A stretch of 64,000 nt of DNA from Rugalucina vietnamica. Taxonomy: Eukaryota > Mollusca > Bivalvia > Lucinida > Lucinidae. Within the stretch, counting starts at the first letter, position 1; each line of letters starts with the position of its first letter. The notes under the pieces are model-generated. The model was not told the DNA's origin. It ran no database searches and saw only the letters and a list, made by a program, of their open reading frames with translations. This document shows, one piece after another, positions 9,500-57,957 of this stretch. Both the position numbers and the translations under genes were made by a program. The stretch spans positions 47,075,986 through 47,139,985 of the forward strand of contig OZ024875.1 of the NCBI GenBank assembly GCA_964017185.1. Direction: 5' to 3'.

Positions 9500-9545
9500 C
9501 TTCATACATTTATATATTATATACCTTTTTTGCAGTATAAGCGGC
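9486..9545. other. Inversion junction: satellite orientation switches
   Basis: Left of about 9500 an A-type monomer reads in + orientation (gtgcaaaaaattattttcga then tctttc). Right of it the sequence is the reverse complement of an A-type monomer (ttcatacattt, tatacc, tgcagtataagcggcttcc). The left arm would be expected to continue with ttggtctcttgctccc but does not. Only a few bases (ttc/tt) could be shared microhomology. The A monomer on the left (..9499) and its mirror near 9585-9616 form an inverted repeat with a loop of about 85 bases. It could be a true inversion or an assembly join. Confidence 0.9.
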
Positions 9546-12440
9546 TTCCTGGCACAAGAGCTAGTTTGGGAGAAAGAGACCAAGAAATATCGAAAATATT
9601 TTTTTGCACCACCCTCTGACATAGTGGGGGGGGGGGGTCTGGCTACCCCTCTCATCCTCTTTCAATCCTGACGAGACTTGCCACATACTTGTATATACTA
9701 TACATCTATGTCGTAGTACTAGCGGCTTCCTGGCACAAGAGCTAGTTTGGGAGCAGGAGACCGAAAACTTTCGAAAATGGAATTTTTTAACACCACCCAT
9801 GACATTGGGGGCCCTGGCTACCCATCTCATCCTCTTTCAATCCTGATGAGACTTGCCACATACTTTTATGTAACATAAACATTTATCACAGTACTAGCGG
9901 CTTCCTGGCACAAGAGCTAGTTTCCGAGCAGAAGACCTAGAAGTGTCGAAAATAGCCAATTCTGTACAGGAAAATATGACCCTAGAGCCGTTGGGGGGCC
10001 TGGCTACCCTCCTCATCCTCTTTCAATCCTAATGAGACTTGCCACATACATTCATACATCATATACCTTTATTGCAGTATAAGCGGCTTCCTGGCACAAG
10101 AGCTAGTTTGGGAGCAAGAGACCAAGAAATATCGAAAATAATTTTTTGCACCCCCCTCTGACATAGTGGGGGGTCTGGCTACCCATCTCATCCTCTTTCA
10201 ATCCTGACGAGACTTGCCACATACTTGCATATACTATACATCTATGCCGTAGTACTAGCGGCTTCCTGGCACAAGAGCTAGTTTGGGAGCAGGAAACCGA
10301 AAACTCTCGAAAATGGAATTTTTGACACCCCCCATGACATTGGGGGCCCTGGCTACCCATCTCATCCTCTTTCAATCCTGATGAGACTTGCCACATACTT
10401 GTATACAGTATACTATACATCTATATCGTAGTACTAGCGGCTTCCTGGCACAAGAGCTAGTTTGGGAGCAGGAGACCGAAAACTATCGAAAATGGAATTT
10501 TTTGACACCCCCCATGACATTCGGGGCCCTGGCTACCTATCTCATCCTCTTTCAATCCTGATGAGACTTGCCACATACTTTTATGTAACATATACATTTA
10601 TCACAGTACTAGCGGCTTCCTCGCACAAGAGCTAGTTTCCGAGCAGTAGACCTAGAAGTGTCGAAAATAGCCAATTCTGTACAGGAAAATATGACCCTAG
10701 AGCCGTTGGGGGGGGCCTGGCTACCCTCCTAATCCTCTTTCAATCCTAATGAGACTTGCCACATACATTCATATATCATATACCTTTATTGCAGTATAAG
10801 CGGCTTCCTGGCACAAGAGCTAGTTTGGGAGCAAGAGACCAAGAAAGATCGAAAATAATTTTTTGCACCCCCCTCTGACATAGTGGGGGGTCTGGCTACC
10901 CATCTCATCCTCTTTCAATCCTGACGAGACTTGCCACATACTTGTATATACTATTCATCTATGTCGTAGTACTAGCGGCTTCCTGGCACAAGAGCTAGTT
11001 TGGGAGCAGGAAACCGAAAACTCTCGAAAATGGAATTTTTGACACCCCCCATGACATTGGGGGCCCTGGCTACCCATCTCATCCTCTTTCAATCCTGATG
11101 AGACTTGCCACATACTTGTATATACTATACATCTATGTCGTAGTACTAGCGGCTTCCTGGCACAAGAGCTAGTTTGGGAGCAGGAGACCGAAAACTATCG
11201 AAAATGGAATTTTTTGACACCCCCTTGACATTGGGGGCCCTGGCTACCCATCTCATCCTCTTTCAATCCTGATGAGACTTGCCACATACTTGTATATACT
11301 ATACATCTATGTCGTAGTACTAGCGGCTTCCTGGCACAAGAGCTAGTTTGGGAGCAGGAGACCGAAAACTATCGAAAATGGATTTTTTTGACACCCCCCA
11401 TGACATTGGGGGCCCTGGCTACCCATCTCATCCTCTTTCAATCCTGATGAGACTTGCCACATACTTTTATGTAACATATACATTTATCACAGTACCAGCG
11501 GCTTCCTGGCACAAGAGCTAGTTTCCGAGCAGTAGACCTAGAAATGTCGAAAATAGCCAATTCTGTACAGGAAAATATGACCCTAGAGCCGTTGGGGGGC
11601 CTGGCTACCCTCCTCATCCTCTTTCAATCCTTATGAGACTTGCCACATACATTCATATATCATATACCTTTATTGCAGTATAAGCGGCTTCCTGGCACAA
11701 GAGCTAGTTTGGGAGCAAGAGACCAAGAAAGATCGAAAATAATTTTTTTGCACCCCCCTCTGACATAGTGGGGGGTCTGGCTACCCATCTCATCCTCTTT
11801 CAATCCTGACGAGACTTGCCACATACTTGTATATACTATTCATCTATGTCGTAGTACTAGCGGCTTCCTGGCACAAGAGCTAGTTTGGGAGCAGGAAACC
11901 GAAAACTCTCGAAAATGGAATTTTTGACACCCCCATGACATTGGGGGCCCTGGCTACCCATCTCATCCTCTTTCAATCCTGATGAGACTTGCCACATACT
12001 TGTATATACTATACATCTATGTCGTAGTACTAGCGGCTTCCTGGCACAAGAGCTAGTTTGGGAGCAGGAGACCGAAAACTATCGAAAATGGAATTTTTTG
12101 ACACCCCCTTGACATTGGGGGCCCTGGCTACCCATCTCATCCTCTTTCAATCCTGATGAGACTTGCCACATACTTGTATATACTATACATCTATGTCGTA
12201 GTACTAGCGGCTTCCTGGCACAAGAGCTAGTTTGGGAGCAGGAGACCGAAAACTATCGAAAATGGATTTTTTTGACACCCCCCATGACATTGGGGGCCCT
12301 GGCTACCCATCTCATCCTCTTTCAATCCTGATGAGACTTGCCACATACTTTTATGTAACATATACATTTATCACAGTACCAGCGGCTTCCTGGCACAAGA
12401 GCTAGTTTCCGAGCAGTAGACCTAGAAGTGTCGAAAATAG
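9500..12440 (-). repeat. Edge of the right arm next to the inversion, more diverged HOR units
   Basis: Contains E markers 9956, 10671 and 11557. The first interval (715 bp) is a 4-mer whose third monomer is a C-like form with gacaccccccatgac; the next is a 5-mer of 886 bp. Monomers carry more private changes than further right (taacataaacatt, tcgcacaagag, ctatgccgtag, tcctcctaatcc). A run of 12 G lies at 9626-9637, the longest homopolymer of this kind in the array. Divergence next to the switch suggests this edge is homogenised less efficiently. Confidence 0.85.
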
Positions 12441-12518
12441 CCAATTCTGTACAGGAAAATATGACCCTAGAGCCGTTGGGGGGCCTGGCTACCCTCCTCA
12501 TCCTCTTTCAATCCTAAT

Positions 12519-12694
12519 GAGACTTGCCACATACATTCATATATCATATACCTTTATTGCAGTATAAGCGGCTTCCTGGCACAAGAGCTAGTTTGGGAGC
12601 AAGAGACCAAGAAAGATCGAAAATAATTTTTTTGCACCCCCCTCTGACATAGTGGGGGGTCTGGCTACCCATCTCATCCTCTTTCAATCCTGAC
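12519..12694 (-). repeat. Monomer type A (reference copy)
   Basis: 176 bp. Diagnostic words on the + strand: acattcatatatcatatacc, attgcagtataagcgg, gagaccaagaaagatcg, and a C-run/G-run pair cccccctctgacatag..ggggggtctgg. It lacks GGGCCC. Across the array two alleles alternate at one site: gcagtataagcgg and gcagtaaaagcgg; the second allele marks units starting at 14212, 17216, 18985, 21989, 24109, 25878, 28882, 31362 and 33842. Confidence 0.88.
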
Positions 12695-12868
12695 GAGACT
12701 TGCCACATACTTGTATATACTATTCATCTATGTCGTAGTACTAGCGGCTTCCTGGCACAAGAGCTAGTTTGGGAGCAGGAAACCGAAAACTCTCGAAAAT
12801 GGAATTTTTGACACCCCCCATGACATTGGGGGCCCTGGCTACCCATCTCATCCTCTTTCAATCCTGAT
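12695..12868 (-). repeat. Monomer type B (reference copy)
   Basis: 174 bp. Diagnostic words: tatactattcatctatg, gcaggaaaccgaaaactctc, and aatttttgacacccccc. Contains one GGGCCC (ApaI) site. It sits next to A in every unit, including the 4-mers. Confidence 0.87.
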
Positions 12869-13042
12869 GAGACTTGCCACATACTTGTATATACTATACA
12901 TCTATGTCGTAGTACTAGCGGCTTCCTGGCACAAGAGCTAGTTTGGGAGCAGGAGACCGAAAACTATCGAAAATGGAATTTTTTGACACCCCCTTGACAT
13001 TGGGGGCCCTGGCTACCCATCTCATCCTCTTTCAATCCTGAT
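12869..13042 (-). repeat. Monomer type C (reference copy)
   Basis: 174 bp. Differs from D mainly in ggaattttttgacacccccttgac (shortened here to key words ggaatttttt and cccccttgac). One GGGCCC. C is the monomer absent from all ~711-bp 4-mers. A hybrid form C' (ggaatttttt with ccccccatgac) follows B in the 7-mers at 15981 and 22874. Confidence 0.87.
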
Positions 13043-13217
13043 GAGACTTGCCACATACTTGTATATACTATACATCTATGTCGTAGTACTAGCGGCTTCC
13101 TGGCACAAGAGCTAGTTTGGGAGCAGGAGACCGAAAACTATCGAAAATGGATTTTTTTGACACCCCCCATGACATTGGGGGCCCTGGCTACCCATCTCAT
13201 CCTCTTTCAATCCTGAT
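13043..13217 (-). repeat. Monomer type D (reference copy)
   Basis: 175 bp. Diagnostic words: aaaatggatttttttgacac and ccccccatgac; a subset has only five C (cccccatgac), e.g. in the units starting at 14212, 17216, 24109, 28882, 31362 and 33842. One GGGCCC site. C and D are more alike than any other pair, so the ancestral HOR probably arose partly by C/D duplication. Confidence 0.87.
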
Positions 13218-13403
13218 GAGACTTGCCACATACTTTTATGTAACATATACATTTATCACAGTACCAGCGGCTTCCTGGCACAAGAGCTAGTTTCCGAGCA
13301 GTAGACCTAGAAGTGTCGAAAATAGCCAATTCTGTACAGGAAAATATGACCCTAGAGCCGTTGGGGGGCCTGGCTACCCTCCTCATCCTCTTTCAATCCT
13401 AAT
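13218..13403 (-). repeat. Monomer type E (reference copy), longest and most divergent
   Basis: 186 bp. Diagnostic words: cttttatgtaacatatac, atttatcacagtaccagcgg, tttccgagcagtagacctag, ccaattctgtacaggaaaat, gaccctagagccgttggg. It lacks the usual gcccccaatgtc segment and the GGGCCC site, and carries about 11 extra bases. It keeps the two conserved boxes, so it belongs to the same family. It occurs once per HOR unit and serves as phase marker. Confidence 0.9.
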
Positions 13404-15980: not shown

Positions 15981-18900
15981 CCAATTCTGTACAGGAAAAT
16001 ATGACCCTAGAGCCGTTGGGGGGCCTGGCTACCCTCCTCATCCTCTTTCAATCCTAATGAGACTTGCCACATACATTCATATATCATATACCTTTATTGC
16101 AGTATAAGCGGCTTCCTGGCACAAGAGCTAGTTTGGGAGCAAGAGACCAAGAAAGATCGAAAATAATTTTTTTGCACCCCCCTCTGACATAGTGGGGGGT
16201 CTGGCTACCCATCTCATCCTCTTTCAATCCTGACGAGACTTGCCACATACTTGTATATACTATTCATCTATGTCGTAGTACTAGCGGCTTCCTGGCACAA
16301 GAGCTAGTTTGGGAGCAGGAAACCGAAAACTCTCGAAAACGGAATTTTTGACACCCCCCATGACATTGGGGGCCCTGGCTACCCATCTCATCCTCTTTCA
16401 ATCCTGATGAGACTTGCCACATACTTGTATATACTATACATCTATGTCGTAGTACTAGCGGCTTCCTGGCACAAGAGCTAGTTTGGGAGCAGGAGACCGA
16501 AAACTATCGAAAATGGAATTTTTTGACACCCCCCATGACATTGGGGGCCCTGGCTACCCATCTCATCCTCTTTCAATCCTGATGAGACTTGCCACATACT
16601 TGTATATACTATACATCTATGTCGTAGTACTAGCGGCTTCCTGGCACAAGAGCTAGTTTGGGAGCAGGAGACCGAAAACTATCGAAAATGGATTTTTTTG
16701 ACACCCCCCATGACATTGGGGGCCCTGGCTACCCATCTCATCCTCTTTCAATCCTGATGAGACTTGCCACATACTTGTATATACTATACATCTATGTCGT
16801 AGTACTAGCGGCTTCCTGGCACAAGAGCTAGTTTGGGAGCAGGAGACCGAAAACTATCGAAAATGGAATTTTTTGACACCCCCTTGACATTGGGGGCCCT
16901 GGCTACCCATCTCATCCTCTTTCAATCCTGATGAGACTTGCCACATACTTGTATATACTATACATCTATGTCGTAGTACTAGCGGCTTCCTGGCACAAGA
17001 GCTAGTTTGGGAGCAGGAGACCGAAAACTATCGAAAATGGATTTTTTTGACACCCCCCATGACATTGGGGGCCCTGGCTACCCATCTCATCCTCTTTCAA
17101 TCCTGATGAGACTTGCCACATACTTTTATGTAACATATACATTTATCACAGTACCAGCGGCTTCCTGGCACAAGAGCTAGTTTCCGAGCAGTAGACCTAG
17201 AAGTGTCGAAAATAGCCAATTCTGTACAGGAAAATATGACCCTAGAGCCGTTGGGGGGCCTGGCTACCCTCCTCATCCTCTTTCAATCCTAATGAGACTT
17301 GCCACATACATTCATATATCATATACCTTTATTGCAGTAAAAGCGGCTTCCTGGCACAAGAGCTAGTTTGGGAGCAAGAGACCAAGAAAGATCGAAAATA
17401 ATTTTTTTGCACCCCCCTCTGACATAGTGGGGGGTCTGGCTACCCATCTCATCCTCTTTCAATCCTGACGAGACTTGCCACATACTTGTATATACTATTC
17501 ATCTATGTCGTAGTACTAGCGGCTTCCTGGCACAAGAGCTAGTTTGGGAGCAGGAAACCGAAAACTCTCGAAAATGGAATTTTTGACACCCCCCATGACA
17601 TTGGGGGCCCTGGCTACCCATCTCATCCTCTTTCAATCCTGATGAGACTTGCCACATACTTGTATATACTATACATCTATGTCGTAGTACTAGCGGCTTC
17701 CTGGCACAAGAGCTAGTTTGGGAGCAGGAGACCGAAAACTATCGAAAATGGAATTTTTTGACACCCCCTTGACATTGGGGGCCCTGGCTACCCATCTCAT
17801 CCTCTTTCAATCCTGATGAGACTTGCCACATACTTGTATATACTATACATCTATGTCGTAGTACTAGCGGCTTCCTGGCACAAGAGCTAGTTTGGGAGCA
17901 GGAGACCGAAAACTATCGAAAATGGATTTTTTTGACACCCCCATGACATTGGGGGCCCTGGCTACCCATCTCATCCTCTTTCAATCCTGATGAGACTTGC
18001 CACATACTTTTATGTAACATATACATTTATCACAGTACCAGCGGCTTCCTGGCACAAGAGCTAGTTTCCGAGCAGTAGACCTAGAAGTGTCGAAAATAGC
18101 CAATTCTGTACAGGAAAATATGACCCTAGAGCCGTTGGGGGGCCTGGCTACCCTCCTCATCCTCTTTCAATCCTAATGAGACTTGCCACATACATTTATA
18201 TATCATATACCTTTATTGCAGTATAAGCGGCTTCCTGGCACAAGAGCTAGTTTGGGAGCAAGAGACCAAGAAAGATCGAAAATAATTTTTTTGCACCCCC
18301 CTCTGACATAGTGGGGGGTCTGGCTACCCATCTCATCCTCTTTCAATCCTGACGAGACTTGCCACATACTTGTATATACTATTCATCTATGTCGTAGTAC
18401 TAGCGGCTTCCTGGCACAAGAGCTAGTTTGGGAGCAGGAAACCGAAAACTCTCGAAAATGGAATTTTTGACACCCCCCATGACATTGGGGGCCCTGGCTA
18501 CCCATCTCATCCTCTTTCAATCCTGATGAGACTTGCCACATACTTGTATATACTATACATCTATGTCGTAGTACTAGCGGCTTCCTGGCACAAGAGCTAG
18601 TTTGGGAGCAGGAGACCGAAAACTATCGAAAATGGAATTTTTTGACACCCCCTTGACATTGGGGGCCCTGGCTACCCATCTCATCCTCTTTCAATCCTGA
18701 TGAGACTTGCCACATACTTGTATATACTATACATCTATGTCGTAGTACTAGCGGCTTCCTGGCACAAGAGCTAGTTTGGGAGCAGGAGACCGAAAACTAT
18801 CGAAAATGGATTTTTTTGACACCCCCCATGACATTGGGGGCCCTGGCTACCCATCTCATCCTCTTTCAATCCTGATGAGACTTGCCACATACTTTTATGT

Positions 18901-21900
18901 AACATATACATTTATCACAGTACCAGCGGCTTCCTGGCACAAGAGCTAGTTTCCGAGCAGTAGACCTAGAAGTGTCGAAAATAGCCAATTCTGTACAGGA
19001 AAATATGACCCTAGAGCCGTTGGGGGGCCTGGCTACCCTCCTCATCCTCTTTCAATCCTAATGAGACTTGCCACATACATTCATATATCATATACCTTTA
19101 TTGCAGTAAAAGCGGCTTCCTGGCACAAGAGCTAGTTTGGGAGCAAGAGACCAAGAAAGATCGAAAATAATTTTTTTGCACCCCCCTCTGACATAGTGGG
19201 GGGTCTGGCTACCCATCTCATCCTCTTTCAATCCTGACGAGACTTGCCACATACTTGTATATACTATTCATCTATGTCGTAGTACTAGCGGCTTCCTGGC
19301 ACAAGAGCTAGTTTGGGAGCAGGAAACCGAAAACTCTCGAAAATGGAATTTTTGACACCCCCCATGACATTGGGGGCCCTGGCTACCCATCTCATCCTCT
19401 TTCAATCCTGATGAGACTTGCCACATACTTGTATATACTATACATCTATGTCGTAGTACTAGCGGCTTCCTGGCACAAGAGCTAGTTTGGGAGCAGGAGA
19501 CCGAAAACTATCGAAAATGGAATTTTTTGACACCCCCTTGACATTGGGGGCCCTGGCTACCCATCTCATCCTCTTTCAATCCTGATGAGACTTGCCACAT
19601 ACTTGTATATACTATACATCTATGTCGTAGTACTAGCGGCTTCCTGGCACAAGAGCTAGTTTGGGAGCAGGAGACCGAAAACTATCGAAAATGGATTTTT
19701 TTGACACCCCCCATGACATTGGGGGCCCTGGCTACCCATCTCATCCTCTTTCAATCCTGATGAGACTTGCCACATACTTTTATGTAACATATACATTTAT
19801 CACAGTACCAGCGGCTTCCTGGCACAAGAGCTAGTTTCCGAGCAGTAGACCTAGAAGTGTCGAAAATAGCCAATTCTGTACAGGAAAATATGACCCTAGA
19901 GCCGTTGGGGGGCCTGGCTACCCTCCTCATCCTCTTTCAATCCTAATGAGACTTGCCACATACATTCATATATCATATACCTTTATTGCAGTATAAGCGG
20001 CTTCCTGGCACAAGAGCTAGTTTGGGAGCAAGAGACCAAGAAAGATCGAAAATAATTTTTTTGCACCCCCCTCTGACATAGTGGGGGGTCTGGCTACCCA
20101 TCTCATCCTCTTTCAATCCTGACGAGACTTGCCACATACTTGTATATACTATTCATCTATGTCGTAGTACTAGCGGCTTCCTGGCACAAGAGCTAGTTTG
20201 GGAGCAGGAAACCGAAAACTCTCGAAAATGGAATTTTTGACACCCCCCATGACATTGGGGGCCCTGGCTACCCATCTCATCCTCTTTCAATCCTGATGAG
20301 ACTTGCCACATACTTGTATATACTATACATCTATGTCGTAGTACTAGCGGCTTCCTGGCACAAGAGCTAGTTTGGGAGCAGGAGACCGAAAACTATCGAA
20401 AATGGAATTTTTTGACACCCCCTTGACATTGGGGGCCCTGGCTACCCATCTCATCCTCTTTCAATCCTGATGAGACTTGCCACATACTTGTATATACTAT
20501 ACATCTATGTCGTAGTACTAGCGGCTTCCTGGCACAAGAGCTAGTTTGGGAGCAGGAGACCGAAAACTATCGAAAATGGATTTTTTTGACACCCCCCATG
20601 ACATTGGGGGCCCTGGCTACCCATCTCATCCTCTTTCAATCCTGATGAGACTTGCCACATACTTTTATGTAACATATACATTTATCACAGTACCAGCGGC
20701 TTCCTGGCACAAGAGCTAGTTTCCGAGCAGTAGACCTAGAAGTGTCGAAAATAGCCAATTCTGTACAGGAAAATATGACCCTAGAGCCGTTGGGGGGCCT
20801 GGCTACCCTCCTCATCCTCTTTCAATCCTAATGAGACTTGCCACATACATTCATATATCATATACCTTTATTGCAGTATAAGCGGCTTCCTGGCACAAGA
20901 GCTAGTTTGGGAGCAAGAGACCAAGAAAGATCGAAAATAATTTTTTTGCACCCCCCTCTGACATAGTGGGGGGTCTGGCTACCCATCTCATCCTCTTTCA
21001 ATCCTGACGAGACTTGCCACATACTTGTATATACTATTCATCTATGTCGTAGTACTAGCGGCTTCCTGGCACAAGAGCTAGTTTGGGAGCAGGAAACCGA
21101 AAACTCTCGAAAATGGAATTTTTGACACCCCCCATGACATTGGGGGCCCTGGCTACCCATCTCATCCTCTTTCAATCCTGATGAGACTTGCCACATACTT
21201 GTATATACTATACATCTATGTCGTAGTACTAGCGGCTTCCTGGCACAAGAGCTAGTTTGGGAGCAGGAGACCGAAAACTATCGAAAATGGAATTTTTTGA
21301 CACCCCCTTGACATTGGGGGCCCTGGCTACCCATCTCATCCTCTTTCAATCCTGATGAGACTTGCCACATACTTGTATATACTATACATCTATGTCGTAG
21401 TACTAGCGGCTTCCTGGCACAAGAGCTAGTTTGGGAGCAGGAGACCGAAAACTATCGAAAATGGATTTTTTTGACACCCCCCATGACATTGGGGGCCCTG
21501 GCTACCCATCTCATCCTCTTTCAATCCTGATGAGACTTGCCACATACTTGTATATACTATACATCTATGTCGTAGTACTAGCGGCTTCCTGGCACAAGAG
21601 CTAGTTTGGGAGCAGGAGACCGAAAACTATCGAAAATGGAATTTTTTGACACCCCCTTGACATTGGGGGCCCTGGCTACCCATCTCATCCTCTTTCAATC
21701 CTGATGAGACTTGCCACATACTTGTATATACTATACATCTATGTCGTAGTACTAGCGGCTTCCTGGCACAAGAGCTAGTTTGGGAGCAGGAGACCGAAAA
21801 CTATCGAAAATGGATTTTTTTGACACCCCCCATGACATTGGGGGCCCTGGCTACCCATCTCATCCTCTTTCAATCCTGATGAGACTTGCCACATACTTTT

Positions 21901-22873
21901 ATGTAACATATACATTTATCACAGTACCAGCGGCTTCCTGGCACAAGAGCTAGTTTCCGAGCAGTAGACCTAGAAGTGTCGAAAATAGCCAATTCTGTAC
22001 AGGAAAATATGACCCTAGAGCCGTTGGGGGGCCTGGCTACCCTCCTCATCCTCTTTCAATCCTAATGAGACTTGCCACATACATTCATATATCATATACC
22101 TTTATTGCAGTAAAAGCGGCTTCCTGGCACAAGAGCTAGTTTGGGAGCAAGAGACCAAGAAAGATCGAAAATAATTTTTTTGCACCCCCCTCTGACATAG
22201 TGGGGGGTCTGGCTACCCATCTCATCCTCTTTCAATCCTGACGAGACTTGCCACATACTTGTATATACTATTCATCTATGTCGTAGTACTAGCGGCTTCC
22301 TGGCACAAGAGCTAGTTTGGGAGCAGGAAACCGAAAACTCTCGAAAATGGAATTTTTGACACCCCCCATGACATTGGGGGCCCTGGCTACCCATCTCATC
22401 CTCTTTCAATCCTGATGAGACTTGCCACATACTTGTATATACTATACATCTATGTCGTAGTACTAGCGGCTTCCTGGCACAAGAGCTAGTTTGGGAGCAG
22501 GAGACCGAAAACTATCGAAAATGGAATTTTTTGACACCCCCTTGACATTGGGGGCCCTGGCTACCCATCTCATCCTCTTTCAATCCTGATGAGACTTGCC
22601 ACATACTTGTATATACTATACATCTATGTCGTAGTACTAGCGGCTTCCTGGCACAAGAGCTAGTTTGGGAGCAGGAGACCGAAAACTATCGAAAATGGAT
22701 TTTTTTGACACCCCCCATGACATTGGGGGCCCTGGCTACCCATCTCATCCTCTTTCAATCCTGATGAGACTTGCCACATACTTTTATGTAACATATACAT
22801 TTATCACAGTACCAGCGGCTTCCTGGCACAAGAGCTAGTTTCCGAGCAGTAGACCTAGAAGTGTCGAAAATAG
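15981..22873 (-). repeat. Second-order HOR: 39-monomer block, copy 1 (6893 bp)
   Basis: Unit order by E marker: 7-mer (15981), 5-mer (17216), 5-mer (18100), 5-mer (18985), 5-mer (19870), 7-mer (20755), 5-mer (21989). The first 7-mer has a rare B allele (cgaaaacggaatt) and the hybrid C' monomer; the second 7-mer has neither. Units at 17216, 18985 and 21989 carry the gcagtaaaagcgg allele, and the 17216 unit also has five-C D. The same order of lengths and alleles follows in 22874-29765. Confidence 0.88.
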
Positions 22874-25800
22874 CCAATTCTGTACAGGAAAATATGACCC
22901 TAGAGCCGTTGGGGGGCCTGGCTACCCTCCTCATCCTCTTTCAATCCTAATGAGACTTGCCACATACATTCATATATCATATACCTTTATTGCAGTATAA
23001 GCGGCTTCCTGGCACAAGAGCTAGTTTGGGAGCAAGAGACCAAGAAAGATCGAAAATAATTTTTTTGCACCCCCCTCTGACATAGTGGGGGGTCTGGCTA
23101 CCCATCTCATCCTCTTTCAATCCTGACGAGACTTGCCACATACTTGTATATACTATTCATCTATGTCGTAGTACTAGCGGCTTCCTGGCACAAGAGCTAG
23201 TTTGGGAGCAGGAAACCGAAAACTCTCGAAAACGGAATTTTTGACACCCCCCATGACATTGGGGGCCCTGGCTACCCATCTCATCCTCTTTCAATCCTGA
23301 TGAGACTTGCCACATACTTGTATATACTATACATCTATGTCGTAGTACTAGCGGCTTCCTGGCACAAGAGCTAGTTTGGGAGCAGGAGACCGAAAACTAT
23401 CGAAAATGGAATTTTTTGACACCCCCCATGACATTGGGGGCCCTGGCTACCCATCTCATCCTCTTTCAATCCTGATGAGACTTGCCACATACTTGTATAT
23501 ACTATACATCTATGTCGTAGTACTAGCGGCTTCCTGGCACAAGAGCTAGTTTGGGAGCAGGAGACCGAAAACTATCGAAAATGGATTTTTTTGACACCCC
23601 CCATGACATTGGGGGCCCTGGCTACCCATCTCATCCTCTTTCAATCCTGATGAGACTTGCCACATACTTGTATATACTATACATCTATGTCGTAGTACTA
23701 GCGGCTTCCTGGCACAAGAGCTAGTTTGGGAGCAGGAGACCGAAAACTATCGAAAATGGAATTTTTTGACACCCCCTTGACATTGGGGGCCCTGGCTACC
23801 CATCTCATCCTCTTTCAATCCTGATGAGACTTGCCACATACTTGTATATACTATACATCTATGTCGTAGTACTAGCGGCTTCCTGGCACAAGAGCTAGTT
23901 TGGGAGCAGGAGACCGAAAACTATCGAAAATGGATTTTTTTGACACCCCCCATGACATTGGGGGCCCTGGCTACCCATCTCATCCTCTTTCAATCCTGAT
24001 GAGACTTGCCACATACTTTTATGTAACATATACATTTATCACAGTACCAGCGGCTTCCTGGCACAAGAGCTAGTTTCCGAGCAGTAGACCTAGAAGTGTC
24101 GAAAATAGCCAATTCTGTACAGGAAAATATGACCCTAGAGCCGTTGGGGGGCCTGGCTACCCTCCTCATCCTCTTTCAATCCTAATGAGACTTGCCACAT
24201 ACATTCATATATCATATACCTTTATTGCAGTAAAAGCGGCTTCCTGGCACAAGAGCTAGTTTGGGAGCAAGAGACCAAGAAAGATCGAAAATAATTTTTT
24301 TGCACCCCCCTCTGACATAGTGGGGGGTCTGGCTACCCATCTCATCCTCTTTCAATCCTGACGAGACTTGCCACATACTTGTATATACTATTCATCTATG
24401 TCGTAGTACTAGCGGCTTCCTGGCACAAGAGCTAGTTTGGGAGCAGGAAACCGAAAACTCTCGAAAATGGAATTTTTGACACCCCCCATGACATTGGGGG
24501 CCCTGGCTACCCATCTCATCCTCTTTCAATCCTGATGAGACTTGCCACATACTTGTATATACTATACATCTATGTCGTAGTACTAGCGGCTTCCTGGCAC
24601 AAGAGCTAGTTTGGGAGCAGGAGACCGAAAACTATCGAAAATGGAATTTTTTGACACCCCCTTGACATTGGGGGCCCTGGCTACCCATCTCATCCTCTTT
24701 CAATCCTGATGAGACTTGCCACATACTTGTATATACTATACATCTATGTCGTAGTACTAGCGGCTTCCTGGCACAAGAGCTAGTTTGGGAGCAGGAGACC
24801 GAAAACTATCGAAAATGGATTTTTTTGACACCCCCATGACATTGGGGGCCCTGGCTACCCATCTCATCCTCTTTCAATCCTGATGAGACTTGCCACATAC
24901 TTTTATGTAACATATACATTTATCACAGTACCAGCGGCTTCCTGGCACAAGAGCTAGTTTCCGAGCAGTAGACCTAGAAGTGTCGAAAATAGCCAATTCT
25001 GTACAGGAAAATATGACCCTAGAGCCGTTGGGGGGCCTGGCTACCCTCCTCATCCTCTTTCAATCCTAATGAGACTTGCCACATACATTCATATATCATA
25101 TACCTTTATTGCAGTATAAGCGGCTTCCTGGCACAAGAGCTAGTTTGGGAGCAAGAGACCAAGAAAGATCGAAAATAATTTTTTTGCACCCCCCTCTGAC
25201 ATAGTGGGGGGTCTGGCTACCCATCTCATCCTCTTTCAATCCTGACGAGACTTGCCACATACTTGTATATACTATTCATCTATGTCGTAGTACTAGCGGC
25301 TTCCTGGCACAAGAGCTAGTTTGGGAGCAGGAAACCGAAAACTCTCGAAAATGGAATTTTTGACACCCCCCATGACATTGGGGGCCCTGGCTACCCATCT
25401 CATCCTCTTTCAATCCTGATGAGACTTGCCACATACTTGTATATACTATACATCTATGTCGTAGTACTAGCGGCTTCCTGGCACAAGAGCTAGTTTGGGA
25501 GCAGGAGACCGAAAACTATCGAAAATGGAATTTTTTGACACCCCCTTGACATTGGGGGCCCTGGCTACCCATCTCATCCTCTTTCAATCCTGATGAGACT
25601 TGCCACATACTTGTATATACTATACATCTATGTCGTAGTACTAGCGGCTTCCTGGCACAAGAGCTAGTTTGGGAGCAGGAGACCGAAAACTATCGAAAAT
25701 GGATTTTTTTGACACCCCCCATGACATTGGGGGCCCTGGCTACCCATCTCATCCTCTTTCAATCCTGATGAGACTTGCCACATACTTTTATGTAACATAT

Positions 25801-28800
25801 ACATTTATCACAGTACCAGCGGCTTCCTGGCACAAGAGCTAGTTTCCGAGCAGTAGACCTAGAAGTGTCGAAAATAGCCAATTCTGTACAGGAAAATATG
25901 ACCCTAGAGCCGTTGGGGGGCCTGGCTACCCTCCTCATCCTCTTTCAATCCTAATGAGACTTGCCACATACATTCATATATCATATACCTTTATTGCAGT
26001 AAAAGCGGCTTCCTGGCACAAGAGCTAGTTTGGGAGCAAGAGACCAAGAAAGATCGAAAATAATTTTTTTGCACCCCCCTCTGACATAGTGGGGGGTCTG
26101 GCTACCCATCTCATCCTCTTTCAATCCTGACGAGACTTGCCACATACTTGTATATACTATTCATCTATGTCGTAGTACTAGCGGCTTCCTGGCACAAGAG
26201 CTAGTTTGGGAGCAGGAAACCGAAAACTCTCGAAAATGGAATTTTTGACACCCCCCATGACATTGGGGGCCCTGGCTACCCATCTCATCCTCTTTCAATC
26301 CTGATGAGACTTGCCACATACTTGTATATACTATACATCTATGTCGTAGTACTAGCGGCTTCCTGGCACAAGAGCTAGTTTGGGAGCAGGAGACCGAAAA
26401 CTATCGAAAATGGAATTTTTTGACACCCCCTTGACATTGGGGGCCCTGGCTACCCATCTCATCCTCTTTCAATCCTGATGAGACTTGCCACATACTTGTA
26501 TATACTATACATCTATGTCGTAGTACTAGCGGCTTCCTGGCACAAGAGCTAGTTTGGGAGCAGGAGACCGAAAACTATCGAAAATGGATTTTTTTGACAC
26601 CCCCCATGACATTGGGGGCCCTGGCTACCCATCTCATCCTCTTTCAATCCTGATGAGACTTGCCACATACTTTTATGTAACATATACATTTATCACAGTA
26701 CCAGCGGCTTCCTGGCACAAGAGCTAGTTTCCGAGCAGTAGACCTAGAAGTGTCGAAAATAGCCAATTCTGTACAGGAAAATATGACCCTAGAGCCGTTG
26801 GGGGGCCTGGCTACCCTCCTCATCCTCTTTCAATCCTAATGAGACTTGCCACATACATTCATATATCATATACCTTTATTGCAGTATAAGCGGCTTCCTG
26901 GCACAAGAGCTAGTTTGGGAGCAAGAGACCAAGAAAGATCGAAAATAATTTTTTTGCACCCCCCTCTGACATAGTGGGGGGTCTGGCTACCCATCTCATC
27001 CTCTTTCAATCCTGACGAGACTTGCCACATACTTGTATATACTATTCATCTATGTCGTAGTACTAGCGGCTTCCTGGCACAAGAGCTAGTTTGGGAGCAG
27101 GAAACCGAAAACTCTCGAAAATGGAATTTTTGACACCCCCCATGACATTGGGGGCCCTGGCTACCCATCTCATCCTCTTTCAATCCTGATGAGACTTGCC
27201 ACATACTTGTATATACTATACATCTATGTCGTAGTACTAGCGGCTTCCTGGCACAAGAGCTAGTTTGGGAGCAGGAGACCGAAAACTATCGAAAATGGAA
27301 TTTTTTGACACCCCCTTGACATTGGGGGCCCTGGCTACCCATCTCATCCTCTTTCAATCCTGATGAGACTTGCCACATACTTGTATATACTATACATCTA
27401 TGTCGTAGTACTAGCGGCTTCCTGGCACAAGAGCTAGTTTGGGAGCAGGAGACCGAAAACTATCGAAAATGGATTTTTTTGACACCCCCCATGACATTGG
27501 GGGCCCTGGCTACCCATCTCATCCTCTTTCAATCCTGATGAGACTTGCCACATACTTTTATGTAACATATACATTTATCACAGTACCAGCGGCTTCCTGG
27601 CACAAGAGCTAGTTTCCGAGCAGTAGACCTAGAAGTGTCGAAAATAGCCAATTCTGTACAGGAAAATATGACCCTAGAGCCGTTGGGGGGCCTGGCTACC
27701 CTCCTCATCCTCTTTCAATCCTAATGAGACTTGCCACATACATTCATATATCATATACCTTTATTGCAGTATAAGCGGCTTCCTGGCACAAGAGCTAGTT
27801 TGGGAGCAAGAGACCAAGAAAGATCGAAAATAATTTTTTTGCACCCCCCTCTGACATAGTGGGGGGTCTGGCTACCCATCTCATCCTCTTTCAATCCTGA
27901 CGAGACTTGCCACATACTTGTATATACTATTCATCTATGTCGTAGTACTAGCGGCTTCCTGGCACAAGAGCTAGTTTGGGAGCAGGAAACCGAAAACTCT
28001 CGAAAATGGAATTTTTGACACCCCCCATGACATTGGGGGCCCTGGCTACCCATCTCATCCTCTTTCAATCCTGATGAGACTTGCCACATACTTGTATATA
28101 CTATACATCTATGTCGTAGTACTAGCGGCTTCCTGGCACAAGAGCTAGTTTGGGAGCAGGAGACCGAAAACTATCGAAAATGGAATTTTTTGACACCCCC
28201 TTGACATTGGGGGCCCTGGCTACCCATCTCATCCTCTTTCAATCCTGATGAGACTTGCCACATACTTGTATATACTATACATCTATGTCGTAGTACTAGC
28301 GGCTTCCTGGCACAAGAGCTAGTTTGGGAGCAGGAGACCGAAAACTATCGAAAATGGATTTTTTTGACACCCCCCATGACATTGGGGGCCCTGGCTACCC
28401 ATCTCATCCTCTTTCAATCCTGATGAGACTTGCCACATACTTGTATATACTATACATCTATGTCGTAGTACTAGCGGCTTCCTGGCACAAGAGCTAGTTT
28501 GGGAGCAGGAGACCGAAAACTATCGAAAATGGAATTTTTTGACACCCCCTTGACATTGGGGGCCCTGGCTACCCATCTCATCCTCTTTCAATCCTGATGA
28601 GACTTGCCACATACTTGTATATACTATACATCTATGTCGTAGTACTAGCGGCTTCCTGGCACAAGAGCTAGTTTGGGAGCAGGAGACCGAAAACTATCGA
28701 AAATGGATTTTTTTGACACCCCCCATGACATTGGGGGCCCTGGCTACCCATCTCATCCTCTTTCAATCCTGATGAGACTTGCCACATACTTTTATGTAAC

Positions 28801-29765
28801 ATATACATTTATCACAGTACCAGCGGCTTCCTGGCACAAGAGCTAGTTTCCGAGCAGTAGACCTAGAAGTGTCGAAAATAGCCAATTCTGTACAGGAAAA
28901 TATGACCCTAGAGCCGTTGGGGGGCCTGGCTACCCTCCTCATCCTCTTTCAATCCTAATGAGACTTGCCACATACATTCATATATCATATACCTTTATTG
29001 CAGTAAAAGCGGCTTCCTGGCACAAGAGCTAGTTTGGGAGCAAGAGACCAAGAAAGATCGAAAATAATTTTTTTGCACCCCCCTCTGACATAGTGGGGGG
29101 TCTGGCTACCCATCTCATCCTCTTTCAATCCTGACGAGACTTGCCACATACTTGTATATACTATTCATCTATGTCGTAGTACTAGCGGCTTCCTGGCACA
29201 AGAGCTAGTTTGGGAGCAGGAAACCGAAAACTCTCGAAAATGGAATTTTTGACACCCCCCATGACATTGGGGGCCCTGGCTACCCATCTCATCCTCTTTC
29301 AATCCTGATGAGACTTGCCACATACTTGTATATACTATACATCTATGTCGTAGTACTAGCGGCTTCCTGGCACAAGAGCTAGTTTGGGAGCAGGAGACCG
29401 AAAACTATCGAAAATGGAATTTTTTGACACCCCCTTGACATTGGGGGCCCTGGCTACCCATCTCATCCTCTTTCAATCCTGATGAGACTTGCCACATACT
29501 TGTATATACTATACATCTATGTCGTAGTACTAGCGGCTTCCTGGCACAAGAGCTAGTTTGGGAGCAGGAGACCGAAAACTATCGAAAATGGATTTTTTTG
29601 ACACCCCCATGACATTGGGGGCCCTGGCTACCCATCTCATCCTCTTTCAATCCTGATGAGACTTGCCACATACTTTTATGTAACATATACATTTATCACA
29701 GTACCAGCGGCTTCCTGGCACAAGAGCTAGTTTCCGAGCAGTAGACCTAGAAGTGTCGAAAATAG
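22874..29765 (-). repeat. Second-order HOR: 39-monomer block, copy 2 (6892 bp)
   Basis: Unit order: 7-mer (22874), 5 (24109), 5 (24993), 5 (25878), 5 (26763), 7-mer (27648), 5 (28882). The cgaaaacggaatt allele and C' hybrid recur in the first 7-mer. The gcagtaaaagcgg allele recurs at 24109, 25878 and 28882, exactly where expected from copy 1. Differences seen: the last unit has five-C D here but six-C in copy 1, giving the one-base length difference, and copy 1 has a catttatatatc variant at the 18100 unit. Confidence 0.88.
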
Positions 29766-32245
29766 CCAATTCTGTACAGGAAAATATGACCCTAGAGCCG
29801 TTGGGGGGCCTGGCTACCCTCCTCATCCTCTTTCAATCCTAATGAGACTTGCCACATACATTCATATATCATATACCTTTATTGCAGTATAAGCGGCTTC
29901 CTGGCACAAGAGCTAGTTTGGGAGCAAGAGACCAAGAAAGATCGAAAATAATTTTTTTGCACCCCCCTCTGACATAGTGGGGGGTCTGGCTACCCATCTC
30001 ATCCTCTTTCAATCCTGACGAGACTTGCCACATACTTGTATATACTATTCATCTATGTCGTAGTACTAGCGGCTTCCTGGCACAAGAGCTAGTTTGGGAG
30101 CAGGAAACCGAAAACTCTCGAAAATGGAATTTTTGACACCCCACATGACATTGGGGGCCCTGGCTACCCATCTCATCCTCTTTCAATCCTGATGAGACTT
30201 GCCACATACTTGTATATACTATACATCTATGTCGTAGTACTAGCGGCTTCCTGGCACAAGAGCTAGTTTGGGAGCAGGAGACCGAAAACTATCGAAAATG
30301 GATTTTTTTGACACCCCCCATGACATTGGGGGCCCTGGCTACCCATCTCATCCTCTTTCAATCCTGATGAGACTTGCCACATACTTTTATGTAACATATA
30401 CATTTATCACAGTACCAGCGGCTTCCTGGCACAAGAGCTAGTTTCCGAGCAGTAGACCTAGAAGTGTCGAAAATAGCCAATTCTGTACAGGAAAATATGA
30501 CCCTAGAGCCGTTGGGGGGCCTGGCTACCCTCCTCATCCTCTTTCAATCCTAATGAGACTTGCCACATACATTCATATATCATATACCTTTATTGCAGTA
30601 TAAGCGGCTTCCTGGCACAAGAGCTAGTTTGGGAGCAAGAGACCAAGAAAGATCGAAAATAATTTTTTTGCACCCCCCTCTGACATAGTGGGGGGTCTGG
30701 CTACCCATCTCATCCTCTTTCAATCCTGACGAGACTTGCCACATACTTGTATATACTATTCATCTATGTCGTAGTACTAGCGGCTTCCTGGCACAAGAGC
30801 TAGTTTGGGAGCAGGAAACCGAAAACTCTCGAAAATGGAATTTTTGACACCCCCCATGACATTGGGGGCCCTGGCTACCCATCTCATCCTCTTTCAATCC
30901 TGATGAGACTTGCCACATACTTGTATATACTATACATCTATGTCGTAGTACTAGCGGCTTCCTGGCACAAGAGCTAGTTTGGGAGCAGGAGACCGAAAAC
31001 TATCGAAAATGGAATTTTTTGACACCCCCTTGACATTGGGGGCCCTGGCTACCCATCTCATCCTCTTTCAATCCTGATGAGACTTGCCACATACTTGTAT
31101 ATACTATACATCTATGTCGTAGTACTAGCGGCTTCCTGGCACAAGAGCTAGTTTGGGAGCAGGAGACCGAAAACTATCGAAAATGGATTTTTTTGACACC
31201 CCCCATGACATTGGGGGCCCTGGCTACCCATCTCATCCTCTTTCAATCCTGATGAGACTTGCCACATACTTTTATGTAACATATACATTTATCACAGTAC
31301 CAGCGGCTTCCTGGCACAAGAGCTAGTTTCCGAGCAGTAGACCTAGAAGTGTCGAAAATAGCCAATTCTGTACAGGAAAATATGACCCTAGAGCCGTTGG
31401 GGGGCCTGGCTACCCTCCTCATCCTCTTTCAATCCTAATGAGACTTGCCACATACATTCATATATCATATACCTTTATTGCAGTAAAAGCGGCTTCCTGG
31501 CACAAGAGCTAGTTTGGGAGCAAGAGACCAAGAAAGATCGAAAATAATTTTTTTGCACCCCCCTCTGACATAGTGGGGGGTCTGGCTACCCATCTCATCC
31601 TCTTTCAATCCTGACGAGACTTGCCACATACTTGTATATACTATTCATCTATGTCGTAGTACTAGCGGCTTCCTGGCACAAGAGCTAGTTTGGGAGCAGG
31701 AAACCGAAAACTCTCGAAAATGGAATTTTTGACACCCCCCATGACATTGGGGGCCCTGGCTACCCATCTCATCCTCTTTCAATCCTGATGAGACTTGCCA
31801 CATACTTGTATATACTATACATCTATGTCGTAGTACTAGCGGCTTCCTGGCACAAGAGCTAGTTTGGGAGCAGGAGACCGAAAACTATCGAAAATGGAAT
31901 TTTTTGACACCCCCTTGACATTGGGGGCCCTGGCTACCCATCTCATCCTCTTTCAATCCTGATGAGACTTGCCACATACTTGTATATACTATACATCTAT
32001 GTCGTAGTACTAGCGGCTTCCTGGCACAAGAGCTAGTTTGGGAGCAGGAGACCGAAAACTATCGAAAATGGATTTTTTTGACACCCCCATGACATTGGGG
32101 GCCCTGGCTACCCATCTCATCCTCTTTCAATCCTGATGAGACTTGCCACATACTTTTATGTAACATATACATTTATCACAGTACCAGCGGCTTCCTGGCA
32201 CAAGAGCTAGTTTCCGAGCAGTAGACCTAGAAGTGTCGAAAATAG
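29766..32245 (-). repeat. Second-order HOR: 14-monomer block 4-5-5 (2480 bp), first
   Basis: 4-mer A-B-D-E (29766, C missing), 5-mer (30477), 5-mer (31362) with the gcagtaaaagcgg allele and five-C D. First appearance of a typical 711-bp 4-mer; no 7-mer occurs to the right of this point. A private B change (gacaccccacatgac) lies near 30140. Confidence 0.87.
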
Positions 32246-51500: not shown

Positions 51501-52975
51501 TAGTACTAGCGGCTTCCTGGCACAAGAGCTAGTTTGGGAGCAGGAAACCGAAAACTCTCGAAAATGGAATTTTTGACACCCCCCATGACATTGGGGGCCC
51601 TGGCTACCCATCTCATCCTCTTTCAATCCTGATGAGACTTGCCACATACTTGTATATACTATACATCTATGTCGTAGTACTAGCGGCTTCCTGGCACAAG
51701 AGCTAGTTTGGGAGCAGGAGACCGAAAACTATCGAAAATGGAATTTTTTGACACCCCCTTGACATTGGGGGCCCTGGCTACCCATCTCATCCTCTTTCAA
51801 TCCTGATGAGACTTGCCACATACTTGTATATACTATACATCTATGTCGTAGTACTAGCGGCTTCCTGGCACAAGAGCTAGTTTGGGAGCAGGAGACCGAA
51901 AACTATCGAAAATGGATTTTTTTGACACCCCCCATGACATTGGGGGCCCTGGCTACCCATCTCATCCTCTTTCAATCCTGATGAGACTTGCCACATACTT
52001 TTATGTAACATATACATTTATCACAGTACCAGCGGCTTCCTGGCACAAGAGCTAGTTTCCGAGCAGTAGACCTAGAAGTGTCGAAAATAGCCAATTCTGT
52101 ACAGGAAAATATGACCCTAGAGCCGTTGGGGGGCCTGGCTACCCTCCTCATCCTCTTTCAATCCTAATGAGACTTGCCACATACATTCATATATCATATA
52201 CCTTTATTGCAGTATAAGCGGCTTCCTGGCACAAGAGCTAGTTTGGGAGCAAGAGACCAAGAAAGATCGAAAATAATTTTTTTGCACCCCCCTCTGACAT
52301 AGTGGGGGGTCTGGCTACCCATCTCATCCTCTTTCAATCCTGACGAGACTTGCCACATACTTGTATATACTATTCATCTATGTCGTAGTACTAGCGGCTT
52401 CCTGGCACAAGAGCTAGTTTGGGAGCAGGAAACCGAAAACTCTCGAAAATGGAATTTTTGACACCCCCCATGACATTGGGGGCCCTGGCTACCCATCTCA
52501 TCCTCTTTCAATCCTGATGAGACTTGCCACATACTTGTATATACTATACATCTATGTCGTAGTACTAGCGGCTTCCTGGCACAAGAGCTAGTTTGGGAGC
52601 AGGAGACCGAAAACTATCGAAAATGGAATTTTTTGACACCCCCTTGACATTGGGGGCCCTGGCTACCCATCTCATCCTCTTTCAATCCTGATGAGACTTG
52701 CCACATACTTGTATATACTATACATCTATGTCGTAGTACTAGCGGCTTCCTGGCACAAGAGCTAGTTTGGGAGCAGGAGACCGAAAACTATCGAAAATGG
52801 ATTTTTTTGACACCCCCCATGACATTGGGGGCCCTGGCTACCCATCTCATCCTCTTTCAATCCTGATGAGACTTGCCACATACTTTTATGTAACATATAC
52901 ATTTATCACAGTACCAGCGGCTTCCTGGCACAAGAGCTAGTTTCCGAGCAGTAGACCTAGAAGTGTCGAAAATAG
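45533..52975 (-). repeat. Three consecutive 14-monomer 4-5-5 blocks
   Basis: Blocks start at 45533, 48014 and 50495 and each measures 2481 bp to the next (ending at 52976). Each is 4-mer + 5-mer + 5-mer. I noticed no private substitution in this stretch, making it the most homogeneous part of the array. Confidence 0.88.
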
Positions 52976-55900
52976 CCAATTCTGTACAGGAAAATATGAC
53001 CCTAGAGCCGTTGGGGGGCCTGGCTACCCTCCTCATCCTCTTTCAATCCTAATGAGACTTGCCACATACATTCATATATCATATACCTTTATTGCAGTAT
53101 AAGCGGCTTCCTGGCACAAGAGCTAGTTTGGGAGCAAGAGACCAAGAAAGATCGAAAATAATTTTTTTGCACCCCCCTCTGACATAGTGGGGGGTCTGGC
53201 TACCCATCTCATCCTCTTTCAATCCTGACGAGACTTGCCACATACTTGTATATACTATTCATCTATGTCGTAGTACTAGCGGCTTCCTGGCACAAGAGCT
53301 AGTTTGGGAGCAGGAAACCGAAAACTCTCGAAAATGGAATTTTTGACACCCCCCATGACATTGGGGGCCCTGGCTACCCATCTCATCCTCTTTCAATCCT
53401 GATGAGACTTGCCACATACTTGTATATACTATACATCTATGTCGTAGTACTAGCGGCTTTCTGGCACAAGAGCTAGTTTGGGAGCAGGAGACCGAAAACT
53501 ATCGAAAATGGAATTTTTTGACACCCCCTTGACATTGGGGGCCCTGGCTACCCATCTCATCCTCTTTCAATCCTGATGAGACTTGCCACATACTTGTATA
53601 TACTATACATCTATGTCGTAGTACTAGCGGCTTCCTGGCACAAGAGCTAGTTTGGGAGCAGGAGACCGAAAACTATCGAAAATGGATTTTTTTGACACCC
53701 CCCATGACATTGGGGGCCCTGGCTACCCATCTCATCCTCTTTCAATCCTGATGAGACTTGCCACATACTTTTATGTAACATATACATTTATCACAGTACC
53801 AGCGGCTTCCTGGCACAAGAGCTAGTTTCCGAGCAGTAGACCTAGAAGTGTCGAAAATAGCCAATTCTGTACAGGAAAATATGACCCTAGAGCCGTTGGG
53901 GGGCCTGGCTACCCTCCTCATCCTCTTTCAATCCTAATGAGACTTGCCACATACATTCATATATCATATACCTTTATTGCAGTATAAGCGGCTTCCTGGC
54001 ACAAGAGCTAGTTTGGGAGCAAGAGACCAAGAAAGATCGAAAATAATTTTTTTGCACCCCCCTCTGACATAGTGGGGGGTCTGGCTACCCATCTCATCCT
54101 CTTTCAATCCTGACGAGACTTGCCACATACTTGTATATACTATTCATCTATGTCGTAGTACTAGCGGCTTCCTGGCACAAGAGCTAGTTTGGGAGCAGGA
54201 AACCGAAAACTCTCGAAAATGGAATTTTTGACACCCCCCATGACATTGGGGGCCCTGGCTACCCATCTCATCCTCTTTCAATCCTGATGAGACTTGCCAC
54301 ATACTTGTATATACTATACATCTATGTCGTAGTACTAGCGGCTTCCTGGCACAAGAGCTAGTTTGGGAGCAGGAGACCGAAAACTATCGAAAATGGAATT
54401 TTTTGACACCCCCTTGACATTGGGGGCCCTGGCTACCCATCTCATCCTCTTTCAATCCTGATGAGACTTGCCACATACTTGTATATACTATACATCTATG
54501 TCGTAGTACTAGCGGCTTCCTGGCACAAGAGCTAGTTTGGGAGCAGGAGACCGAAAACTATCGAAAATGGATTTTTTTGACACCCCCCATGACATTGGGG
54601 GCCCTGGCTACCCATCTCATCCTCTTTCAATCCTGATGAGACTTGCCACATACTTTTATGTAACATATACATTTATCACAGTACCAGCGGCTTCCTGGCA
54701 CAAGAGCTAGTTTCCGAGCAGTAGACCTAGAAGTGTCGAAAATAGCCAATTCTGTACAGGAAAATATGACCCTAGAGCCGTTGGGGGGCCTGGCTACCCT
54801 CCTCATCCTCTTTCAATCCTAATGAGACTTGCCACATACATTCATATATCATATACCTTTATTGCAGTATAAGCGGCTTCCTGGCACAAGAGCTAGTTTG
54901 GGAGCAAGAGACCAAGAAAGATCGAAAATAATTTTTTTGCACGCCCCTCTGACATAGTGGGGGGTCTGGCTACCCATCTCATCCTCTTTCAATCCTGACG
55001 AGACTTGCCACATACTTGTATATACTATTCATCTATGTCGTAGTACTAGCGGCTTCCTGGCACAAGAGCTAGTTTGGGAGCAGGAAACCGAAAACTCTCG
55101 AAAATGGAATTTTTGACACCCCCCATGACATTGGGGGCCCTGGCTACCCATCTCATCCTCTTTCAATCCTGATGAGACTTGCCACATACTTGTATATACT
55201 ATACATCTATGTCGTAGTACTAGCGGCTTCCTGGCACAAGAGCTAGTTTGGGAGCAGGAGACCGAAAACTATCGAAAATGGATTTTTTTGACACCCCCCA
55301 TGACATTGGGGGCCCTGGCTACCCATCTCATCCTCTTTCAATCCTGATGAGACTTGCCACATACTTTTATGTAACATATACATTTATCACAGTACCAGCG
55401 GCTTCCTGGCACAAGAGCTAGTTTCCGAGCAGTAGACCTAGAAGTGTCGAAAATAGCCAATTCTGTACAGGAAAATATGACCCTAGAGCCGTTGGGGGGC
55501 CTGGCTACCCTCCTCATCCTCTTTCAATCCTAATGAGACTTGCCACATACATTCATATATCATATACCTTTATTGCAGTATAAGCGGCTTCCTGGCACAA
55601 GAGCTAGTTTGGGAGCAAGAGACCAAGAAAGATCGAAAATAATTTTTTTGCACCCCCCTCTGACATAGTGGGGGGTCTGGCTACCCATCTCATCCTCTTT
55701 CAATCCTGACGAGACTTGCCACATACTTGTATATACTATTCATCTATGTCGTAGTACTAGCGGCTTCCTGGCACAAGAGCTAGTTTGGGAGCAGGAAACC
55801 GAAAACTCTCGAAAATGGAATTTTTGACACCCCCCATGACATTGGGGGCCCTGGCTACCCATCTCATCCTCTTTCAATCCTGATGAGACTTGCCACATAC

Positions 55901-56462
55901 TTGTATATACTATACATCTATGTCGTAGTACTAGCGGCTTCCTGGCACAAGAGCTAGTTTGGGAGCAGGAGACCGAAAACTATCGAAAATGGAATTTTTT
56001 GACACCCCCTTGACATTGGGGGCCCTGGCTACCCATCTCATCCTCTTTCAATCCTGATGAGACTTGCCACATACTTGTATATACTATACATCTATGTCGT
56101 AGTACTAGCGGCTTCCTGGCACAAGAGCTAGTTTGGGAGCAGGAGACCGAAAACTATCGAAAATGGATTTTTTTGACACCCCCCATGACATTGGGGGCCC
56201 TGGCTACCCATCTCATCCTCTTTCAATCCTGATGAGACTTGCCACATACTTTTATGTAACATATACATTTATCACAGTACCAGCGGCTTCCTGGCACAAG
56301 AGCTAGTTTCCGAGCAGTAGACCTAGAAGTGTCGAAAATAGCCAATTCTGTACAGGAAAATATGACCCTAGAGCCGTTGGGGGGCCTGGCTACCCTCCTC
56401 ATCCTCTTTCAATCCTAATGAGACTTGCCACATACATTCATATATCATATACCTTTATTGCA
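52976..56462 (-). repeat. Right end of the homogeneous array
   Basis: 5-mer (52976, ggctttctgg allele at 53460), 5-mer (53861), 4-mer (54746, A monomer with gcacgcccctc), 5-mer (55457), then E at 56342 and the start of an A monomer that stops at ctttattgca (56462). HOR units remain near-identical up to this last base: the homogeneous array ends abruptly. Confidence 0.9.
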
Positions 56463-57952: not shown

Positions 57953-57957
57953 TTCAG

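Follow-up and report, generated by a model that had tools for sequence, protein, structure and literature searches.

The window analysed here is a stretch of 64,000 nucleotides from the bivalve Rugalucina vietnamica (C7:47075986-47139985), in a genome of 1.09 Gb and 47 contigs, 17 of which make up 1088 of its 1090 Mb. A single satellite of ~174 bp occupies nearly the whole window, in which no complete open reading frame of at least 150 amino acids (table 11) was found. The satellite belongs to an inverted-repeat structure that reaches from C7:47074123 to C7:47133639 (59,517 bp as assembled), with its right end at window position 57654. The left arm (1-9495, - strand) consists of the same satellite without a regular higher-order unit and continues 1863 bp to the left of the window, up to the terminus at C7:47074123; outside the window, the - strand satellite runs to C7:47074332. 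At the centre (9496-9539), the orientation switches without a long loop, with an incomplete A monomer on the left and an E tail on the right, as judged by eye. The centre is not a perfect hairpin, the best 40-bp arms matching at 32/40 positions around a spacer of 57 bp.

The right arm (9540-56463, + strand) is a higher-order array of 265 monomers. A 187-bp non-satellite segment (56464-56650, + strand), 97% identical to sequences at C7:12.33 Mb and C5:28.64 Mb, forms the junction between the array and the diverged edge monomers (56646-57534, + strand). The arm closes with a 120-bp non-satellite terminus (57535-57654, + strand), which carries repeated motifs of the GATGAAATTTTCATC type and ends in ...CTTGACGCCGGT. 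The original prediction placed the satellite in the + array, where it is indeed found, and did not extend to the - strand copies of the left arm or to the edge monomers.

An inverted copy of the terminus lies at C7:47074123 (98% identity over 174 bp, partly edge satellite), and the inverted termini, ACCGGCGTCAAG... and ...CTTGACGCCGGT, enclose satellite in - and then + orientation. The end motif of the element termini is ACCGGYGTCAAG. Directly beyond the right terminus is the right copy of a 9-bp target-site duplication, AATATAGAG (57655-57663, + strand), the left copy being located just outside C7:47074123. In its architecture, the element is a foldback DNA transposon, bounded by terminal inverted repeats (TIRs) and flanked by a 9-bp duplication of its target. 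The original prediction did not place the array within such a 59.5-kb element, of which it forms one arm. The two arms of the element are 85% identical over the outer 950 bp, and the internal differences per E monomer within the window amount to 1.1 in the + arm versus 14.5 in the - arm, the long arm being homogeneous and the short one heterogeneous.

The monomers of the + array were assigned by an edit-distance anchor scan; cutting at the best regular-expression matches missed diverged copies. Loose anchor matches on the opposite strand at 13 errors, which resemble weak self-complementarity, were dropped. This anchored decomposition recovered 54 monomers of the E type, as had been predicted, the first at 9896 and the last at 56282. 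Their E-specific cores span about 9956-56342, the very interval given for the array beforehand. The 53 E-to-E intervals comprise 38 5-mers (884-886 bp), 11 4-mers (710-715 bp) and four 7-mers (1234-1235 bp), which bears out the three unit lengths of ~711, ~885 and ~1235 bp read from the letters.

Three label strings account for all 53 intervals, whereas 1000 shuffles of the labels gave 0.1 fits on average and never more than 2. Identity to the monomer five places on is found for 51% of monomers and identity to the next monomer for 0% (rounded). The modal variant is present in 39-48 of the 53 units for A, B, D and E, and in 40/46 for C. The + array is built of near-identical units with several distinct monomers each, which defines a higher-order repeat. 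The 5-mer and the 4-mer, A-B-C-D-E and A-B-D-E (the latter without C), are the strings originally proposed. The 7-mer had been read as A-B-C-D-C-D-E, with a repeated C-D pair; its string is instead A-B-C-X-C-D-E, in which the fourth monomer, X, is an exact chimera of a D head and a B or C tail. The first 145 bases of X are those of D and the last 30 those of B and C, with a clean breakpoint, and X is identical across the four 7-mers.

The distances between modal monomers (B-C, 5 edits; C-D, 13; B-D, 14; E to the others, 42-48) also show that B and C are the closest pair, rather than C and D as previously supposed. The modal B and C monomers differ solely within their first ~80 bases. In the 4-mers, B lies at most two edits from the modal B in 10/11 cases and six edits from it in the diverged first 4-mer (10082), whose monomers carry 4-6 edits each. 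The origin of the unit-length variants in out-of-register exchange, already part of the original prediction, is supported by these sequences, while the partners would be others than the C and D proposed there. For the 4-mer, the loss of C appears best explained by a B/C exchange: past about base 80 the two modal monomers do not differ, and an exchange there would leave a normal B. For the 7-mer, a single exchange between the D of one unit and the B of another seems the best explanation.

Along the array, the variants form ordered blocks. A seven-unit block, 7-5-5-5-5-7-5 (16107-22999, + strand, 6893 bp), is followed by a second copy (23000-29891, + strand, 6892 bp), with most variants common to both (B1, C1, D1, E1) and rarer variants shared as well. 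Judging from their sequence, the two copies are a recent block duplication. All four 7-mers (16107, 20881, 23000 and 27774) lie within the two blocks. The 7-mer therefore probably arose once and then spread by block duplication, since X is the same in all four and they sit in two copies of one block that share rarer variants. The 4-mers occur at the array start (10082) and beyond 29892, where they alternate with 5-mers (29892-55582, + strand); the arrangement 5-5-4 (about 2480 bp) is found in five of the nine spacings between successive 4-mers.

Several other repeats lie near the element. A dispersed repeat of ~200 bp with a GCGAAAACAAAGGCGC hairpin is present at window positions 57719-57959 and 63458-63713, with several copies within 110 kb, including those at C7:47037555, 47047982, 47051589, 47145057 and 47145392. 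It is in one copy of this repeat that a sequence resembling the empty site of an element on C6 was found (see below). Three tandem copies of a 454-bp unit occupy 58709-60062, and a 94% identical copy of this region (about 1.5 kb) lies near a satellite element at C12:13.622 Mb. Past these units, ACGACGG repeats and then CTCACCTGTGAGCCTTCGGCTCAGGTGAGC form an end-like motif (60070-60150), of a type known from mollusc genomes. Finally, a segment of 107 bp (62122-62228) matches its own reverse complement at 93% and resembles a small hairpin element.

The termini of the element recur throughout the genome. The terminal 23-mer has 130 exact matches, compared with none for the reversed control, and relaxing one position yields 78 + 87 = 165 termini, the reversed patterns again giving none. 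The terminal 241 bp were also used as a similarity query, for which 40 of 232 first-look candidates were scored. Setting aside the window and two matches that are short and weak, identity over the outer ~215 bp is 98-100% at the 40 other places. A pattern search for related ends diverging after base 30 gave one place only, the end of a known copy. Neighbouring termini within 150 kb of each other number 77 cases, with the order -/+ in 66, +/- in 5, -/- in 5 and +/+ in 1. The smallest of the 66 minus/plus pairs spans 202 bp and the largest 103,662 bp, with a median of 30.7 kb and a total of 2.33 Mb; they are spread over 17 contigs, with 1 to 9 per contig; 33 of the 165 termini are unpaired. A copy at C5:28613279, with a degraded right terminus, is omitted from these pairs.

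Target-site duplications were tested in 41 of the 66 pairs. The 9-bp flanks match at 9/9 positions in 33 pairs, at 8/9 in three and at 7/9 in one, and are unmatched in four (C7:51.87, C12:13.60, C17:30.59 and C3:8.50 Mb). As a control, none of 342 mismatched left/right flank combinations (19 pairs) reaches 7/9. The 33 perfect duplications all differ from one another. They flank copies as large as that of 103.7 kb on C9 and as small as those of 202 and 246 bp on C17, which are the size of miniature inverted-repeat elements (MITEs). The former of these, a hairpin (C17:14240357-14240558), consists, by eye, of two termini without satellite between them, and the latter (C17:12715067-12715312) has the same ends. 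Within the limited sequence searched, an empty-site-like match for the copy at C6:50.63 Mb was found at window positions 63464-63496; it corresponds to both flanks of that copy with one 9-mer between them (33 bp, two mismatches). Taken together, the family shows TIRs made of tandem repeats, duplications at both ends and many dispersed copies with the same ends, as expected of foldback elements.

Two further intervals, C14:38792092-38870884 and C3:59402226-59589864, are not neighbouring pairs; they were rejected as elements and omitted from the duplication count. The outer flanks of the right end at C14:38870884 and the left end at C3:59402226 are the same sequence in the same orientation, which may point to a segmental duplication or a repeat at these places.

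Seven copies were read end to end: that of the window and those of 3.0, 3.5, 6.6, 12.8, 12.9 and 16.7 kb. All seven contain satellite in - and then + orientation with short non-satellite segments, and no coding or common middle domain was found in them. In the 3.5-kb copy on C8, the two 1.6-kb arms are 98% identical and make a near-perfect hairpin, which contains edge monomers, a gap of ~214 bp and about one higher-order unit around its centre. The arms of the 16.7-kb copy are 98% identical over 2.1 kb. In the six copies compared, arm identity is 98% in two and 84-86% over the outer 0.9-1.0 kb in four, the window's copy included. The 1.0-kb gap in the right arm of the 12.8-kb copy (C12:48295400-48296417) was considered as a transposase gene and rejected; it has no long open reading frame, its single frame of at least 60 amino acids lying at its edge. 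By eye, this ~1.0-kb segment has inverted ends of its own, ACAGCTCCGTTTCATAAG, and is therefore a nested small element.

The higher-order unit varies by locus, and the copies examined tend to have their own multi-monomer pattern. The window's unit is ABCDE/ABDE, while C7:12.33 Mb has mostly 5- and 6-mers in alternation (1944-bp period), C17:29.39 Mb mostly ABBDE and C12:13.61 Mb mostly ABDE, the B and C labels at other loci denoting the nearest window monomer. At C2:66.4 Mb most E monomers lie 883-886 bp apart, and at C2:76.8 Mb most lie 708-711 bp apart; spacings are mixed at C1:22.2, C1:88.5 and C2:22.1 Mb. The order E-A-B-D is already present in small copies.

A comparison of 195 E monomers from 12 loci indicates that they group by locus, the nearest neighbour lying in the same locus for 72% of them versus 16% after shuffling. 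Of the thirteen loci entered, the C8 copy dropped out because none of its E monomers combined 85% identity with nearly full length and the E motif. The 12 loci are a small share of the family, most of them partial and several picked for matching the window's unit. Three of them (C12:48.29, C7:32.13 and C9:20.01) have E monomers that are, on average, no closer to one another than to those of other loci. The E motif has 2012 exact copies in the genome. Among the first 100 listed (C1 and part of C2 only), 98 fall inside paired elements, and - precedes + in all five elements that show both E orientations. The other two motifs of this set are at C1:16467933 and C2:48067181, the latter 15 kb from an unpaired left terminus.

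The reading that we favour, with a probability of roughly 0.86, sees the array as an arm of a non-autonomous foldback transposon, which moves as short hairpins whose arms then grow in place. Mobilisation by a transposase would account for the insertions recorded in the sequence, and the 9-bp duplication suggests an enzyme of the Mutator type. This length falls in the range of 8-11 bp given for Mutator-like elements (MULEs) in the accessible text on Rehavkus (PMC6446971). No transposase was found in the elements themselves: none of the 59 MULE domains found in the genome lies inside the 66 terminus-pair intervals, the nearest being 183 kb away (excluding five matches on C5, a contig without an exact pair). 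A Mutator-like transposase supplied elsewhere would move short hairpin copies such as the 3.5-kb one. After insertion, the arms may lengthen in place, and unequally, through out-of-register exchange, block duplication or replication restart, each insertion founding its own higher-order satellite. The window's + arm would have reached about 47 kb of array in this way; the 7-mer probably goes back to a single D x B exchange, and the 6.9-kb block duplication and the 5-5-4 blocks would then have spread the variants. Growth of the arms in place is what we infer from these comparisons.

It could be argued that the locus is an ordinary heterochromatic array, centromere- or pericentromere-like, whose inverted layout arose by a chance inversion or segmental duplication. 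In centromeric satellites, too, one finds higher-order repeats, high homogeneity and switches of orientation. Such satellites are marked by CENP-A and by a single main locus on each chromosome, and the presence of several loci on many contigs here speaks against that class. However, such an array would not be expected to have exact common termini with site-specific 9-bp duplications, copies down to 202 bp, three satellite loci on C7 among the matches listed, or terminus pairs on 17 contigs with 1 to 9 on each, and this origin is highly unlikely. A Helitron or Helentron with internal tandem repeats is hardly conceivable, even though the satellite-like repeats of oysters lie inside Helentron elements according to the accessible text of their description (PMC7492417). 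The same text gives Helitrons as lacking target-site duplications (PMC7492417), whereas perfect 9-bp ones flank 33 of the 41 pairs tested here, and the present elements have true inverted-repeat termini around an interior of inverted satellite.

Another question is whether the giant copies were transposed as units of 50-100 kb instead of growing after insertion. Perfect duplications around copies of 50 to 104 kb would fit such transposition, as would the recurrence of the E-A-B-D order at far-apart loci. This order is, however, already found in the small copies, and both the grouping of E monomers by locus and the differences in higher-order unit among loci argue against movement at full size, which we regard as unlikely. 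As for the 4-mer and 7-mer variants and the array lengths, they might be artefacts of assembly; near-identical arrays tend to collapse, and the lengths depend on the assembly. An artefact would not readily produce variants in ordered blocks that share rarer variants, a chimeric monomer with a clean breakpoint or boundaries that recur at many loci, so this explanation is quite improbable. Growth in place of a foldback element remains our preferred reading. A combined scheme can be put forward only tentatively: transposition may plant a short hairpin that develops its own higher-order satellite in place, and some copies may later move again as palindromes of 50-100 kb, which would rank among the largest non-autonomous cut-and-paste elements.

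Tandem-repeat TIRs are a feature of the foldback or Mutator-type elements FB of Drosophila and TU of the sea urchin, and FB makes a 9-bp duplication. Both are far shorter than the present elements, to which they are likened here by description, and we know of no higher-order arms in either of them. A foldback element with higher-order arms or of such size was not found in the titles and abstract openings of the open PMC papers listed. The closest described case found is Tetris of Drosophila virilis. In the accessible text of its description (PMC4079207), Tetris is a non-autonomous foldback transposon and the source of the TIR-220 satellite. The likeness extends to long TIRs holding tandem repeats (~220 bp in Tetris), to target-site duplications of 8-10 bp (9 bp here), to the amplification of internal repeats into satellite arrays and to a short MITE-like relative (PMC4079207). 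Tetris itself is described there with three structurally complete copies, TIRs of up to 1,735 bp, arrays of up to 66 copies and a middle domain, and the expansion of its arrays is thought possibly to disrupt the element (PMC4079207). In contrast, the present family comprises 66 pairs, with higher-order arms and elements of up to 104 kb that have both ends and the 9-bp duplication.

Two other systems share part of this organisation. Rehavkus has a 9-bp duplication and a minisatellite inside the element; unlike the present element, in which no coding sequence was found, it encodes a PHD-finger transposase, and its minisatellite precedes one terminus, as stated in the accessible text (PMC6446971). 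The Helentron carriers of oysters likewise disperse bivalve satellites of similar monomer length by transposition, but they are of the Helitron type, have no target-site duplication and reach 29 monomers in their longest array; the term 'higher-order' is absent from the accessible text of that paper (PMC7492417).

The family described here is a foldback-type transposon that keeps both ends and its duplication intact at lengths of up to about 100 kb. The element is also a route for the spread of a satellite through the chromosomes. The origin of higher-order repeats is an old question; most work on it concerns centromeres, in which no trace of the founding event survives. In the present arrays this event is marked by transposon ends and target-site duplications, and the starting state is probably represented by the short copies. 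Should the arms indeed have grown in place, the genome would hold dozens of tagged arrays, each started independently, in which the birth of higher-order repeats is replayed. In primate alpha satellite, as here, multi-monomer units are near-identical within an array and differ between loci. Unlike the arrays of alpha satellite, those of R. vietnamica are the arms of mobile elements with defined ends and, as far as is known, not centromere arrays.
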